64,000 nucleotides of DNA from Porphyra umbilicalis (Eukaryota > Rhodophyta > Bangiophyceae > Bangiales > Bangiaceae). This document shows, in pieces, positions 20,045-28,040 of the stretch. The stretch's first letter is position 1; every line of letters starts with the position of its first letter. Below the pieces are notes generated by a model. That model saw only the letters and a list, made by a program, of their open reading frames with translations, made no database searches and was not told the DNA's origin. The stretch lies in assembly GCA_002049455.2 (NCBI GenBank), contig KV918808.1, positions 186,001-250,000 on the forward strand. Reading direction: 5' to 3'. Both the position numbers and the translations under genes were made by a program.

Positions 20045-20875
20045 TCACGCCTCGCAGGGCGGGAGTCCGGGCGTGCCCGGCGCGCGGCACGCAAAGGCCT
20101 TGAGCGCAGCCGCTGCGACCGGCGCGCACAGGTGCTCCCCCTCCACCACCGCCGGCTCAAAGTGGAGCCCCGCGGTCACGCGGGAGCGGCTGCACGCGGC
20201 GGCGAGCGCGTCGAGCGACGGCCACGTGATGGAGAGCGGCGCCGACGGCACGCCCGGGCCGTAGGTGTTTGGCTCCCACCGCCACGTGAGCGGCAGGGCG
20301 TCGCCGCCAAAGGCCCGATACGTTTCCGCAAACGCGCGGCACACGCAGGCGCTGCCCGACGGGTACTCGGGGTGGGGCATGGTGCGGAGGGCGGATGTAA
20401 AGTTGGCGGCGCGGCCGTCGGTGGCGCCCAGGATGCGGCGCACGAGCGACGCTGGTCGGACGGTATCGTGACGTGCCTTTTCGCGCCACACCACCCGCGT
20501 CGCGTCGTGGTTGGCCGCGTTGAGCACCACCTCGGCGACGAGGTAGTCGGCGTATGTAAAGCCGGGCAGGGCCGGTAGCTGGAGGGCAAACAGGGCCAGC
20601 GACGTGCTCTTACGGTCGAAAAAGTGGGAGAGCACCAGGTCCGTCTCGTTGGCAGCGGCGACCGCGTCGAGCACCCCGGTCGCCTGCGCGCAGAGGTGGT
20701 CGGGGTCATGCTCGTCGTCGCATCCCTCGCCCGTGTCGTTGGTCCGGCACTGAAAGTCGGGCGTGTAGGCGTCTGGGTACTTGTAGGGTGGCGGCGCCAC
20801 GAGTGCGTCGAGCGCCTCGGCCGGTACCAGGGCCAGCTGTACGCGCCCCGCTGGAGGCATTGTAAACCGCTGCGA
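20045..20875 (-). pseudogene. Vanadium haloperoxidase-like gene, 3' part (split by transposon)
   Basis: This is the C-terminal half (about 275 residues) of a protein in the vanadium-dependent haloperoxidase/PAP2 superfamily; family members oxidise halides with H2O2. The signature K-X6-RP is exact in WREKARHDTVRP. PSGS stands at 30 residues further (EYPSGSACVC) where PSGH is usual, and SR-X5-H (SRVTAGLH) follows 53 residues later, spacing as in the family. The vanadate-binding Lys, Arg and last His are thus kept, but the acid-base His is Ser. At 20872/20873 the frame runs into the CGA target duplication of the transposon. Across the transposon it continues in the segment at 27234-28040 (FVS joined to QRFTM). 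Confidence 0.88.
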
Positions 20876-21023
20876 CCCTACAAGAAAATTTGACCGAAAA
20901 TCCCAGGTTTTCTGCCTCGAAATCCCAGGTCGCCTGGGATACCGAGCCAAACCCACTTCCATGGAGCGATTTACCTGGGATTCCGTGCAACGGCGACCTG
21001 GCCCGTGCGGATCGACCTGGGAT
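20876..21023. repeat. Left terminal inverted repeat and subterminal repeats of the CACTA element
   Basis: The terminal repeat covers about 20876-20911. Nine-base subterminal motifs ATCCCAGGT or its complement ACCTGGGAT occur at 20900-20908, 20922-20930, 20932-20940 (GCCTGGGAT), 20973-20981 and 21015-21023. In Spm such repeats bind the TnpA protein; here that role is inferred. Confidence 0.9.
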
Positions 21024-21757
21024 TTCGAGTCCAATGTCGCGGATCGGCCTGGATGGGATCCTCAGCCTCTCTGCTCATGCCGCTTCGCACGCCAACAATC
21101 CCCGCCAGCTCGGAACAAATTGTGAAGTGGCCGTGTCCTCATACATTCCCGACCTTCGGCCTGCCCCATCGCCACCGCGGCGTAGTGACACGTCAGGCTT
21201 CAGGGAGGGAGGGTATCCCCGGCTGGGCTTGTGCCCCGATACAGAAGGTCCGGTGACGCGGGCCGGCGGCGCTCTGGGCCGCCGCCAAGCGACCATTCCG
21301 GCATGTGGGGACATCAGGACCAGCATGCCTCGAGCTGTCAGACTGGAGCAGGGGGGGGGGTGCAGCGGGTGGAAGGTGGCCAACACAGCGATGCATTGAG
21401 CCCCTCTCGTGTGCGTGCTGGAAGGGAAAAGTGAGACTTGTGGCCACCTGGTCGAAACACCTGAGGCTTATGACGAGCGAGCTGCTTCCAGTCTGGCCTT
21501 CCACCGTTGAGATCTAGATGCCGATGGAAGCTTCCAGAGCATTCCACTGTCAGCCGTGCAATCCTGCCATTTGATAGGGCACTGCTTCGCCCTGTTTGCC
21601 TGTAAAAGAGTCTCCCATGGCCTTACCGACGATGTGTTCCATCAGCCATCGACACTCGCATTGCCACCGCCGGTGCTCCTTCTTCGCCGCCTCGTCATCG
21701 ACCTGCTGCTCCAGCTCCCCCCCCTATCCCAACCTCCACCCCCCACCAGCAGTGGCC

Positions 21758-24717
21758 ATGGTACCCTCTGGCGTCGGCGAGCGGTACGCCTGTTACTGCC
21801 CATCCTGCACGGACGACGGCCGCAGTGGTCCCAACTCGGTGTGTCGGTCAACTTTTTTTATCCACCGACAGCGTGAAAAGCGCCGTCGTCTGGAGCATGG
21901 CGGCCACGGTGGCGGTCCAGCAAATGCCCTACTCCCCAATGGTGGGGGGGGGGACCATCAGCGGGCGACGGGCTTTCGGTGCCGTCGGGCGGCCAGGGTG
22001 GACAACCGCCAGGGGATGACGGCGCCAGCGCACAGGCGGCCGTCGAGGCGGACCGGCGCCGATGCGATGCGGACGAAACGCCGGACGCAAGTGTGGCATC
22101 GAGCGATTCCACGTCAAACGACGGATCAGACGGATCAGACGGGTCAAACGACGTGCCACCACCGGATTTCATCGCTGATCCGGAGCCAGAAGATCAGATT
22201 GGGGCTCCACCAATCCCGATTTACCAACCAACCGTCAGCACGAACGAAGTGCGTCTGACGGTGGGCCAGTTTAAGGATTGCAGAGCAGACCTTGCGCTGC
22301 ATGCCTTTACAGTTCAACACGATTTGACGCAAGCGTCGATTGCGGATCTACTTCAATTAAGCTCCTCCGCGGCCACGTACTGCACGCCCCACCTTATGGA
22401 GCGTTTCGTCGATGCAAGCGTCAACTTGGAGACAAGGTTAGTCGACTGTTGCGTCCACGGGTGCGTGGCCTTCACCCATACGCGCGCGCAACAGACCACG
22501 TGCGACGCTTGCGGATCACCGCGCTTCAAAGCCAACGGCAAGCCGGCCAAACAGGTCACGTACTGGTCCTTGACATCCTGGTTGGCTCACCTTCTCAGCG
22601 ACCCCATAATTGGGAAGTCAATGATGGAGAACATGGCTGCGGCGCGCAAGGCTGTGGATGAAGTGGCCGACGGGGTCCACGACTACCCCCACAGCTCGAA
22701 CTTCCGTCACTACCGCGATGCAGGACTACTTGATCACGGCCCTTTCGTACCAGTTAACTGTGGAACCGACGGCTTTCAGTTCTTTCGGCAGAACGGGTTC
22801 GAAGGCTGGCCGGTAACGGTCACACCCCTGAGCCTGAGCCCTAACCAACGGACGCGCATGAAGTATCAGCTACTGCTGGTCGTAACGCCTGGGCCAAGAC
22901 AACCTGCCGACCTCGAATCGTTTCTACACCCCATTGCGGCGGAGTTAAACGAGCTGGCCAAGGGTGTTCCCGGTCTAATAGTAGCCAACTCGCCAACCCC
23001 AGTCGTGTTAAGGGCCGGAGTGCTCAACTTTACGACGGATCAGCCGGGCGGCGACAAGCTCTGTCAGCTAACTGGCGTCAGCAGCTACATTTACAACCGT
23101 TTTTGCCTCTTCCAGGGAATCTACGCTCCTGCAAGTAGCCATGTCTACTTCCCGCCTAAGGATCTAAGCGGCAAGTCTCTGTTCAAAGTACGTGACTGCA
23201 TTGCACCGCGACGCACGGCCGCAAGTATTGCCGTAAGTGCGGCTGAAGTGGAGGACGCGCGTGCAGAAGGCAGATCGGTCGCGTACCAGACAAGGCTGCA
23301 GCAGAAGAGTGGCGTTAAGGGCTACTCCCTGTTCTTCGCGCCCAGCCCAGCAATGCGCACCGCCTACCCGCACCTGAAACACTTATGGACAATGGGTCCT
23401 ACCGCCGCCCCCTACGATACCATGCACTTGGTGCTCCTAAACGTTGTGCCGCACCTGTGGAAGCTCTTCGCTGGGCTTAAGCTGGTAAACAACAAGAAGG
23501 ACGAAGACTACTTCTTACCGAAGGCGACGGTGGCCCTCATCGGCCGGGAGCTGCGGGAGGCGCGCCAGACGGTGCCCCTGGCCCAGGCCAGATCTCTGAG
23601 AAATATCGACATCCATCAAAAGTCCTTCAAGGCGGTCGACTGGATGCACTTTATCCTGTGCAGCGGAGAAGTACTGCTGGCAAGTCGGATTCCAAGCGCC
23701 TTCTACAAGATCTTCATGGCACTAAGCCGCGCCTGCCGTCTGCTATTCCGACCTAGGGGCGTATCTGAGGCGGATATCCAGTCGATTGACAACGATCTCA
23801 AGTACTTCGTGACCAACTACTACGATAAGATATACCGCGGATCGGCCGAGCGGTTACCGCTCTGCCTGTCTACAATTTCTTCTCTTCTAGACATTGTTCC
23901 GCTGCTCCGCGCGTGCGGCCCAGCCTGGGTCGTCTGGCAGTTTCCGATGGAGCGGAAAATTGGGACGCTGGGAAAGCTGATCCGCTCCAGTTCAAGACCG
24001 CACGCCACCCTCGTCAAGAATGTCACGCGCAAATGCAAGGCCGACCTCATTACTTCCTTTGGCCAGCAATACTTACCCACCGAATGGGCAGAAACAACTG
24101 AGAAACGTTGGACGGCGCCCGGTCTTCCTCGCGGCAGCCTGAAGGTACCTCAGGATGTCGGCGCTGACTGCGCGCTGCTACCACCTAGGAGCGAGCCGGT
24201 GGGCCTTGAAGGGGCGGAGCTTTCCAGTATGCGGGCAGTGCTGATCCAAGAAAACGCCGACGAAGTGCCTCTTCAGGTTTTGGCTAAGAAGTACTACCGA
24301 GCTAAGCTGGCGTCCGGAAAAATTGCCGGATCTAGGCCTGTCGGGTCGGACTGCGACAAGCGCCGGCGCCGCAACTACTTGGTACGGATCAACTCCCGAG
24401 AAGATTTCTTCCTCCCCGACGGTTCCGTGGGGGAGCGCTCAGTCTCAACGTTTGGGGCCATCTTACACTACGCGGCCGTGTTCATTAATGGCCAAGCAAT
24501 GGCCTTCGCCTACGTAGAGCGCGTTAAGTCGGCTAAGGACCGCCCCGGCCGGTATGGTTACGCGGCGACCAAGTACGGGATTGAGTGTATCCTCGGGCTA
24601 GGCGGGTCGTGCGGATACGTACCAGTCGGCGCCGTGGCCGAAGTTGTCGCCACAATTGGGAGAGAGGGCCTCCATTTTGTGTTGTTTAATAGGGAGCCGT
24701 TTTCTGAGGACCTGTAG
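21758..24717 (+). CDS. CACTA tnp2-type transposase (one apparent frameshift)
   Basis: The main frame (from about 21955 to 24717) encodes roughly 915 residues of the tnp2/Plavaka-type transposase of CACTA elements. Visible are a Cys pair block (CCVHGCVAF...CDACGSPRF), the NCGTDGFQFF and LSPNQRTRMKYQLLLVVTPGP region followed by DLESFLHPIAAELNELAKGVPG, the SYIYNRFCLFQGIY block, and a C-terminal ..MERKIGTLGKLIRSSSRPH... region. The frame has no ATG at its start (position 21979 is GTG). An upstream ATG at 21758 opens a second frame with a Cys/His-type N-terminus (RYACYCPSC...FFIHRQREKRRR), as family members have. The two frames would join across the 10-G run 21944-21953 with one extra G. Codon use is much less GC-biased than in host genes. 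Confidence 0.85.
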
Positions 24718-25331
24718 AACCAGAAGGGGTGGGCTAAGAGGACGCAAACCACTTGTCATTGGATTTAATTAAGCGTGTAACTGCCTAAAAATAATAGAAA
24801 GCAGTGACGAAGACAAGAACAACTGCCATATTTACTTTGTACACGCCAACTATTGCAGCTCTGATTCATTCCAGTGACGTTTCTACGCCAACCGGATCTC
24901 GACCGGACCCAGGGCCCACGGAGGCCTCTGGGCCGCACGATCTCGGAAGAGCGGTCGAGGGGGCGGCATTGGTTTCCAATGGCCTCTGGCGGGGGTGCCC
25001 GTTCACCAGCACCGCCCGGCGGCAGCTTTCCGCCACCAGTGCTTCGTGGGCGCTCTACGGAAGGGGGGCGCTCAGAGCCTGCGCACTGTGAGTATTCTGG
25101 CCACGGCCCAGACGATGCCAGCGCACACCTGGCCACACTGACTACCACGGTGTGAGTGACGCGGTCACCGCAGTCGCAGGCACCACCCCGTCGCATCCAA
25201 CGTCGCCTTCACCGTCGCGTCTCACAAAGGCACGCACACTCCCCGCCCCTTTTGCACCTGTCATCTGTGTCGCACTCTCGACGCTCCTTCCCCGATACCC
25301 CTGGACCGATCCTTTCCCGAGCTCCCGTAAC

Positions 25332-26713
25332 ATGGCGGCCGGCCGCAAGCGAGCGCGTGGTGCTAGCGGTACGTGTTGTTCGTTTCTTTGGATCTGATGT
25401 ATATCCACTGCCCCCACCCCCCCACTCCCCCCCAACATCCCCCGTTCTGAGCGTGATTATGCTCTTTGTCCGTACGGCCACGTGTTATATGTGTGTGATA
25501 TGCTGTCCCATCTTTGTATGGACACCCGGTCCTCCTCGTCTGTCTTTTTTCGGCACAGAATGGTGTACATACGGGGGGAATGCACACTGGTATGGTGACT
25601 GACGAGACCGAAATACTTGAGTGCTTTCCTTTGCGTTGTGTTTCTTTGTGCTCGATATCCTTCTCTTCGATCCATTTCGTTTTCTTTCCAGGCAATTTGG
25701 CCGCCGCCGTCGCGGCGGCTGCAGCACTGCCGGCGGCGGCTCCCCGCGCGTCGAACGACGCGTCGTCACCCCCGCGAGCGCAGCCGAATCGAACTTCGGG
25801 ACGCCGGCGCGCGGCCGTTGCCACGCCGCCACCACCGCCGAATCGTCGGCTGTCCTCTCCCCGCGAGGCGTTGCCCCCGCCCCCCGTGCGAACGCGTCTC
25901 TCTTCTCGCGGTGCCAGCGCGCCAAGCTCTTCGGCGACGGGGGCTACTTCCGCGTGCCCGAACGGGCGCGGCAGCGCCGAGGCTGCGGCCGTTCCGGCGA
26001 GCCCTGCTGGGCCTGCGGCGGTTTTGAACGGCTCTTCGGAGCGCCCGCTGGTGGTTCTGCCCGTCCCATCTCGGTCACGTGGGGCGGGCAGGACCCGCGG
26101 CACCACGAACGGCCGGTGCGGATTCGATCTTCACCCGGACCCGGATGCCGCGCGGCGTGCGGTGGCGATACCCGCAGCCGCCGTCAACCGCTTGCCAGTT
26201 TTTCAGGTCCTTAACATCTCTGGGCCGGACGTGATACACATCAAGCGGCTGGCAAAGTCGGCCGCTAAGGTGTTTGACCCCCTCGTCACCTTCTGCGCAC
26301 AGGCGCGAGTGGACATTGACGTGGCCGTCCGGCACCTTGAGCGGTTCGAGCCGCGGCTGGGCGTTTGCGTTCGGAGCTGGGGTGCCTGCTGTCTACTGTC
26401 TAAGGTAGCCAACAACAGCGCGGCCTATCACAAGGCGCTCGCAAAGAAGGGGCAGGCCGGGCAGGCGGCGGCCGCGGCGGCGACGGCGGGCGGGGCAACG
26501 CTCCCGTCGCCGACACGGCCGCTGCCACCGCCGCCGACACGGCGGCTGCCACCGCCGCCAACACGGCCGCTGCCACCGCCGCCGAATCGGTCGGTGCGAC
26601 CCTCGTCACCGGCTGCACGGGTCAGATCGGGAACTAACGCCAGCGATCACGCAACCGTTGACAGTGCGACGGGTGCCCAGTCGGCCGAGGATTTCTTTGC
26701 TTCTCATCGCTAG
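25332..26713 (+). CDS. Second CACTA protein, spliced (TnpA-like position)
   Basis: A single intron joins exon 25332-25368 (MAAGRKRARGAS) to exon 25692-26713. The donor is G|GTACGT and the acceptor TTTCTTTCCAG|GC, giving a phase-1 junction and a 352-residue protein. The N-terminus is Ala/Pro/Arg-rich. A folded-looking core (about residues 175-255) includes LNISGPDVIHIKRLAKSAAK and RVDIDVAVRHLERFEPRLGV. The C-terminal third has TRPLPPPP/TRRLPPPP repeats. I do not recognise a family. By position and element type it could be the TnpA-like subterminal-repeat-binding protein. An AATAAA signal follows the stop at 26717. Confidence 0.65.
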
Positions 26714-27024
26714 TTAATAAACACAACCATCCGACCTGTTCACAACATTGTCTAATCAATGAATACTTGACTAAACGGAATATTGCTATTATAGCAAGCT
26801 GTCAAGTATACTCGAACACAGCGTACAGCAGAAACTGATATGCCAGTACGTAATACCGTACTTCACTCTTATATGTAACATTCTTTGAAGGTATCCCAGT
26901 GTAAGATTGTGCAGTCACAACTGCACTCATACTTGAATATGGACCATTGCGCTGTCTGACAGCATTGCTCTCAGCCACCCATCTATGCAACGTGGATGCC
27001 TGTGAGCGAACCAAAGTCCATACA

Positions 27025-27233
27025 ATCCCAGGTTGTACCTGGGATTCTAAGCCCCAGCGATGCCCGAAGATCCCAGGCAAGCTGGTATTCCGCATGAGCT
27101 TGAGGTCCTTTTTTCAGGGCTGTGAAGGTCTTCGACCTGGGATATTGAGCCACACAACCTGGTTTTTTGTGCCACTTCACCTGGTATTATGGGCCATAAA
27201 ACTTGGGATTTCTCGTTAGATGTTCTAGTAGGG
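27025..27233. repeat. Right terminal inverted repeat and subterminal repeats of the CACTA element
   Basis: The subterminal motif appears at 27025-27033, 27037-27045, 27070-27078 (ATCCCAGGC), 27135-27143 and, as ACTTGGGAT, at 27201-27209. The terminal inverted repeat covers about 27198-27233 and ends CTAGTAGGG. Confidence 0.9.
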
Positions 27234-28040
27234 CGACACAAACGTGCCAAAGCCCCATAGGTTCTCCACGAGGGGCACCCACCGGAGCAAGCAGGTGATC
27301 GAATCCGGCGTGTTGACCGGCGCATAGCCGGAGAGGGCATCAGAGTAGGGTGCCCCACCGAGGCGCCCATCCGCGTTGAAGCCATCATCGGCAATAGCGT
27401 CAAGGGTGACCTTGGCGACCGCATGGTAGCCAAAACAGGCGGCCTCCGTCGTCGTCGGCGGCATCGTGCACCCATCATCACACGCCTCCCCCGGCGGGCA
27501 GCCACGCGGGAGGGACACGTTCATCCCAGCGGCGGCGGCGTACATGGGTGCGACGCCCTTCTCGCCAAAAAAGTGCGCGGTCATGGCCACCTTGACGCCC
27601 GCGTTGCGAAGGTGCACCGCCTCCTCGGAGCGATCAGCGGGCGCGGCGCGGCCGGGGGGGGACCCCCCACGGGCCGGCACGTACCCATGGCGCTCCGCAT
27701 AGACGGGGAGGCAATCGTACTCGGCGGCGGTGAGGGCGGCGTTGAAGCGGAACTCGTACGGGGCCTCGAACTTGAAGCTTTGGTAGATTGGCACGACCGA
27801 CGCGAGCATCGCGCCGATGAGGGGCGGGAGCGCTGCAAGGATGGGGGGGAGCTCCTGCGCCCCCGGGGGGGGGGGCTCAACCCCCGTGGGAACGTGCTGA
27901 TCACCGGCGGAGGTGGGCTGACCACCGACGGGGGCACCAACGGCAACCGCAACGGCGGCGACCGACAGAGCCACCGCAGCCATGTGGGCGGCAGTCAGGC
28001 GATGGCGGATTGGGCGGGGGGTGAAGACAGAGGCTGCCAT
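27234..28040 (-). pseudogene. Vanadium haloperoxidase-like gene, 5' part (split by transposon)
   Basis: The N-terminal half (269 codons) of the same gene as 20045-20875. It contains PPLIGAMLASVVPIYQSFKF, then AMTAHFFGEKGVAPMYAAA and the family block DGFNADGRLGGAPYSDALSGYAPVNTP ahead of LLRWVPLVENLWGFGTFVS. ATG 28040 is preferred because it gives a signal-peptide-like start (HMAAVALSVAAVAVAVGAPV); an ATG at 28157 would put 39 polar residues before it. The predicted export to a membrane or extracellular space is inference. Together with the 3' part and one CGA removed, a single uninterrupted 544-codon frame results. As it stands the frame reads only two codons into the transposon before a stop. 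Confidence 0.88.

Follow-up and report, generated by a model that had tools for sequence, protein, structure and literature searches.

Plant CACTA/EnSpm elements, such as Spm, Tam1 and Tgm, carry a tnp2-type transposase and a second gene, have subterminal repeats and duplicate 3 bp of their target. The TRC elements (SmTRC1 and its animal and fungal kin) encode a Transposase_21 protein, have a CCC core in their inverted repeats and make 2-bp duplications. The TRC element of Tribolium starts with CCCTAG, and the D-x-M-H box occurs in animals and in three of four fungal sequences and not in flowering plants, according to PMC1636069. In the Plavaka/CMCT clade, as described in PMC12730594, EnSpm-related transposases go with target duplications of 2-5 bp. 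The tips are TGT in PlavakaA, CATCA in PlavakaB and CA..TG in most of the CMCT clade, and the motifs C(2)C and H(3-4)H lie between the second D and the last E of the transposase. The element reported here is not described in the titles or abstract openings of the papers found on red-algal CACTA/EnSpm elements and on haloperoxidases combined with transposons.

We analyzed a stretch of 64,000 nt of Porphyra umbilicalis (GCA_002049455.2, KV918808.1, 186,001-250,000, forward strand), hereafter the window, whose positions are used throughout. The genome searched was this one assembly, with 83.8 Mb in 665 contigs. It seems almost certain that a recently active cut-and-paste Transposase_21 transposon, related to CACTA, has inserted in the open frame of a NapH-like haloperoxidase gene in the window. 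The element has 6358 bp and lies at 20876..27233 on the plus strand, as defined by its tips, by target duplications and by 16 further full-length copies that are 99.5-99.8% identical to it. On this strand it starts with CCCTACAAGAA and ends with TTCTAGTAGGG, and both ends have the tip CCCTACnAGAA. Comparison of the left end with the reverse-complemented right end gave imperfect terminal inverted repeats at 20876..20915 (plus strand, tip CCCTACAAGAA) and 27194..27233 (minus strand, tip CCCTACTAGAA). Subterminal repeats were counted in the first and last 350 bp and compared with shuffled ends. On the left, AATCCCAGG/CCTGGGATT repeats lie at 20899..21024, five of them with at most one mismatch (shuffled mean 0.07). 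On the right, nine copies of the AATCCCAGG motif with at most two mismatches span 26892..27210, and six in the last 350 bp have at most one (shuffled mean 0.08). The repeats are found in both orientations. The two ends thus hold 11 copies of AATCCCAGG with at most one mismatch; the interior of the element holds none at this level and eight with two mismatches.

The transposase frame runs from stop to stop over 946 codons (21877..24717, plus strand). Pfam found only Transposase_21 (PF02992) in it, with 30.8 bits against a cut-off of 28.6 (E 2.2e-7). D298, D388 and E692 are invariant in this protein and in those of four diverged relatives (L037, L038, L039 and L040), and we infer that they are the catalytic residues. 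A second gene lies at 25332..26713 on the plus strand, with a probable intron at about 25369-25691 suggested by GT/AG and the frame. It is also found in all four diverged relatives (36-45% identity), and it had no Pfam match at E values up to 10. The preliminary description had called the transposon complete. This holds for its structure, but in the window copy the transposase frame lacks an in-frame ATG upstream of residue 174. Including the window copy, we examined 21 copies, 20 of them fetched; 17 are young and full-length (window included) and four are older. Among the 17 young copies, the transposase frame has 946 codons in 11 (one with an internal stop), 1046 in five and 879 in one. A G run near the start of this frame (21944-21953) has 10 G in 12 of the 17, including the window copy, and 11 G in the other five, which are the same five that have the 1046-codon frame; real variation and sequencing error are alike possible.

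On sequence grounds, we place the element in the Transposase_21 group, within the broadly defined CACTA clade. The earlier assignment to CACTA is borne out by the Transposase_21 match and the 3-bp duplication, but not by the tips: as these read CCCTAC, the element falls outside the strict CACTA definition of termini (CACTA/CACTG, CA..TG). Two further traits of CACTA/EnSpm (CMC) elements are present: the target duplication falls in their 2-5 bp range, where 3 bp is usual, with 3 bp at 19 of the 21 copies, and there are short subterminal repeats (the 11 AATCCCAGG copies at the ends). The element resembles plant CACTA/EnSpm in its tnp2-type transposase, second gene, subterminal repeats and 3-bp duplication, and differs from it in its CCCTAC tips and in having Transposase_21 as the only domain that Pfam finds in the frame. 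With TRC it shares Transposase_21 and tips starting with CCC, whereas its target duplication has 3 bp instead of 2 bp and its host is a red alga. Reading by eye against the TRC motifs suggests that motif I (DG-x3-F-x7-WP) and the D-x-M-H box are present with departures: motif I has C in place of I/L/V/F at one position, and in the D-x-[LM]-H box A the outer residues are Y and N. It is similar to the Plavaka/CMCT elements in the size of the duplication and in its EnSpm-related transposase, but its CCCTAC tips differ from theirs.

The transposases of the four diverged relatives are 50-73% identical to that of the window. In three of the four, CCCTACAAGAA was found at both ends, next to the 3-bp repeats GGG, TAG and CCC. 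As the end search required a matching 3-bp repeat, the evidence for these ends is the tip match, which is 14-15 of 16. The same search found no fitting right end for L039. We also looked for the zinc motifs of the CMCT clade. With the D, D and E positions inferred as above, neither C(2)C nor H(3-4)H occurs from D388 to E692 of the window protein or in the same interval of L037. L038, L039 and L040 have CxxC about 230 residues after the D, and an H(3-4)H is seen at 25-29 in L039 and L040. Another Transposase_21 lineage of this genome (L041, on contig C53) has its CxxC at a distant place by comparison, 19 residues after a D-x-P motif. A profile comparison between the window lineage and one 1.3-kb piece of this other lineage showed no similarity. 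Loss of the zinc motif was therefore dropped as a main claim, because three of the four relatives have CxxC elsewhere and the comparison with the other lineage was empty.

The element is flanked by the duplicated target site CGA (20873..20875 and 27234..27236), which was read in the sequence and agrees with the 3-bp duplications at sister copies. The insertion point lies between codon 269 (TCG) and codon 270 (CAG) of a gene on the minus strand, between S and Q. Codons 1-269 (27234..28040) are the 5′ part of this gene, defined by the frame and by Pfam DUF6851 (E 2.1e-6, 28.6 bits, cut-off 27). Codons 270-544 and the stop (20045..20872) are the 3′ part, defined by the frame, by Pfam VCPO_2nd (E 1.7e-11, 44.9 bits, cut-off 27) and by matches to solved structures. 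Once the element and one CGA are omitted, a single frame of 544 codons remains, which opens with the ATG at position 28040 and closes with the stop at 20045. The coordinates of the element, the CGA duplication and the 544-codon frame given in the preliminary description all proved exact, and alignment with five paralogues leaves no gap at the junction of S and Q. That description had also let its reading depend on the two flanks belonging to one gene, and they do: both are colinear with the five paralogues.

The joined protein matches four solved vanadium haloperoxidase sequences, all with E values of 8e-13 or better: 9ptr (E 1.6e-23), 9l8x, NapH3 (8cxl) and NapH1 (3w35), the last over residues 392-511 only. 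The alignments with 9ptr and 9l8x, the two that were inspected, span the insertion point, and their YPS-x-S and SR..GxHF stretches align with the host protein. Judged by these matches, the host would be a NapH-like vanadium haloperoxidase gene with putative halogenation activity, differing from the four in being interrupted. The five paralogues in the same genome (C133, 71% identity; C172, 46%; C215, 40%; C62, 38%; C28, 35%) are all continuous at the insertion site. In C133, the codons around the site (GTG TCG CAG CGG TTT) are identical to those of the window gene. The haloperoxidase-like gene had been described as cut in mid-exon, which agrees with the DUF6851 and VCPO_2nd halves on the two sides and with the uninterrupted paralogues. 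It had also been described as otherwise intact. Similarly, we found dN/dS values against C133 of 0.357 for the part before the site and 0.333 for the part after it, and with C172 as outgroup, 32 private amino-acid changes in the window gene and 35 in C133. Nothing in these sequences suggests decay of the host gene, before or since the insertion.

On the gene strand, reading from the start stops two codons into the element, giving 271 residues that end with GTFVSPY. Translation would end there, and the product would be missing its entire second half, VCPO_2nd domain included. Unless the element is excised or removed by splicing, the gene is thus very likely null.

Splicing would restore the protein if the element acted as an intron, with signals near its ends removing it in frame. 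The donor consensus is GTRAGT. On the gene strand, the element ends with TTTTCTTGTAG, a good-looking acceptor by consensus, and is followed by TCGCAG. When GT dinucleotides up to 60 nt before the site were combined with AG dinucleotides up to 60 nt from the far end, 18 combinations kept a frame of more than 500 codons, and the tightest pair (GTGTCG...TCGCAG) would take out only V, S and Q. Because of the in-frame TAG two codons into the element, no usable donor can lie beyond the site. The nearest donors (GTGTCG, GTCGCC and GTTTGT) are poor compared with the consensus, the tightest product would be without a glutamine that all five paralogues have, and the continuity of these paralogues at the site also argues against an intron. 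In PMC4219821, CACTA ends are described as able to mimic splice sites, and the ends of Spm and Ac as sometimes doing so. Removal of the element as an intron seems unlikely, and we give this explanation a slim chance.

The insertion of a mobile element is also what the sister copies point to. The left 628 bp of the element are present at 17 places in the genome, the window included, with at least 625 bases at 100% identity (rounded). The 16 fetched full-length copies have the near-identity to the window copy given above, and one of them (L016) is 210 bp shorter; the four older copies are about 89-96% identical to it. The left tip is CCCTAC in all 21 copies and the right tip is GTAGGG in 20 (L027 is off by one base). 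Duplications of 3 bp, with many different triplets, were found at 19 of the 21 copies (16 of the 17 young and three of the four older ones). The chance of a 3-base match, computed from the 3-mer frequencies of the window, is 0.019 per copy, and 19 matches in 21 copies therefore exclude chance. One of the 19, L011, is weak evidence, as its repeat sits in a CGG run. No matching repeat was found at L009 and L025; the former case can be explained by a tandem duplication and the latter is without explanation. L009 and L010 lie on the same contig (C320, about 52.7-66.5 kb), and the 1147 bp between them are repeated after the second copy with 99.65% identity. Such a layout is what one would expect if a second element had inserted nearby and the copies had then recombined unequally. 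Segmental duplication was rejected as the source of the copies, because the flanks of the 21 copies are mutually unrelated; the exceptions are the L009/L010 tandem and a 276-bp repeat common to L020 and L026. The two flanks of L028 resemble each other.

The mean pairwise difference among the 17 young copies is 0.24%, and the window copy has six private differences in 6358 bp. The insertion had been called young in the preliminary description, and we regard it as young too, judging from the sequences, because the copies are near-identical and the host gene is undecayed. It could instead be old and fixed, in a gene that was already dying. No second allele or empty site was found in the assembly, in which each flank is present once at 100%, and a single allele is compatible with fixation. 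The next-best matches of the flanks were to the C133 paralogue (75-77% of DNA), with weaker or short ones on C172 and C215. Against an old insertion stand the 16 near-identical sister copies, the few private differences of the window copy, the similar purifying signal in both halves of the gene and the lack of excess private changes (32 versus 35), so that we see a very slim chance for it. An assembly error that joined unrelated flanks through a repeat copy is hardly conceivable: near-identical 6-kb repeats are a classic source of misjoins and the assembly is in 665 contigs, but the two flanks together restore one gene, which is colinear with five paralogues, the exact 3-bp duplication is unexpected from a misjoin, and each flank is single-copy at 100%.

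For the insertion of this young transposon, we propose steps that follow the established behavior of DDE transposons. The tnp2-type transposase would have bound the subterminal AATCCCAGG repeats and excised the element from its donor site. The element would then have been joined to target DNA cut at TCG/CGA with a 3-bp stagger, and repair of this cut would have produced the CGA duplication. The event belongs to a known kind, of which it is a clean example, and does not represent a new kind of system.

Two close pairs of young copies, less than 15 kb apart, were seen on C180 (L022 and L023) and C21 (L018 and L019). In both pairs the flanks are unrelated and the target triplets differ. Among 16 independent insertions, about 0.04 close pairs would be expected (P = 9e-4 for at least two), with a distance threshold that was chosen post hoc. 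The close pairs suggest local hopping; against it, L018 has most of its shared differences in common with L016, which is on another contig.

With Pfam we scanned 20 open frames, unjoined, in the flanks of 12 of the 16 young sister copies (L009, L015, L021 and L022 were left out). The only hit above the Pfam cut-off was a strong match to ankyrin repeats in the left flank of L018. Within a single frame of 791 codons, the two sides of L018 also match adjoining parts of one Lipase_3 profile: positions 37-82 on the left (E 0.036) and 95-136 on the right (E 4.4e-4). Neither match reaches the curated cut-off. L018 is thus probably a second split gene, of an ankyrin-lipase kind. L024 sits within a frame of 594 codons that has F-box-like and leucine-rich (LRR) hits, both below the Pfam cut-off, and L012 has a weak VPS8 hit, also below it. 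The remaining frames of the 20 had no Pfam hit. It follows that the family probably enters coding exons more than once.

The Transposase_21 group is abundant in this genome. We counted 136 matches at E values up to 0.001, many of them in frames of more than 900 codons. As a separate observation, C665, which is likely the plastid, has phycobilisome-linker genes, one with three linker repeats, and linker matches also occur at eight places on other contigs. These genes point to a red alga.

It is plausible that the window insertion is polymorphic between individuals. A wider reading, which we offer tentatively and hold to be less likely than not, is that the family is currently mobile and autonomous. 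It would form a branch of its own within the CACTA clade, with CCC tips, 3-bp duplications and a transposase that is without the zinc motif of the clade at its usual place. Its copies would hop locally, break exons and segregate, the window insertion included, between individuals. The young burst, with many full-length and near-identical copies, makes the family a candidate for use as a natural mutagen and for gene tagging in red algae, and the insertion site is a ready PCR marker for the broken haloperoxidase allele. The CCC tips together with the 3-bp duplications extend to red algae a type of terminus that has been reported for animal elements.
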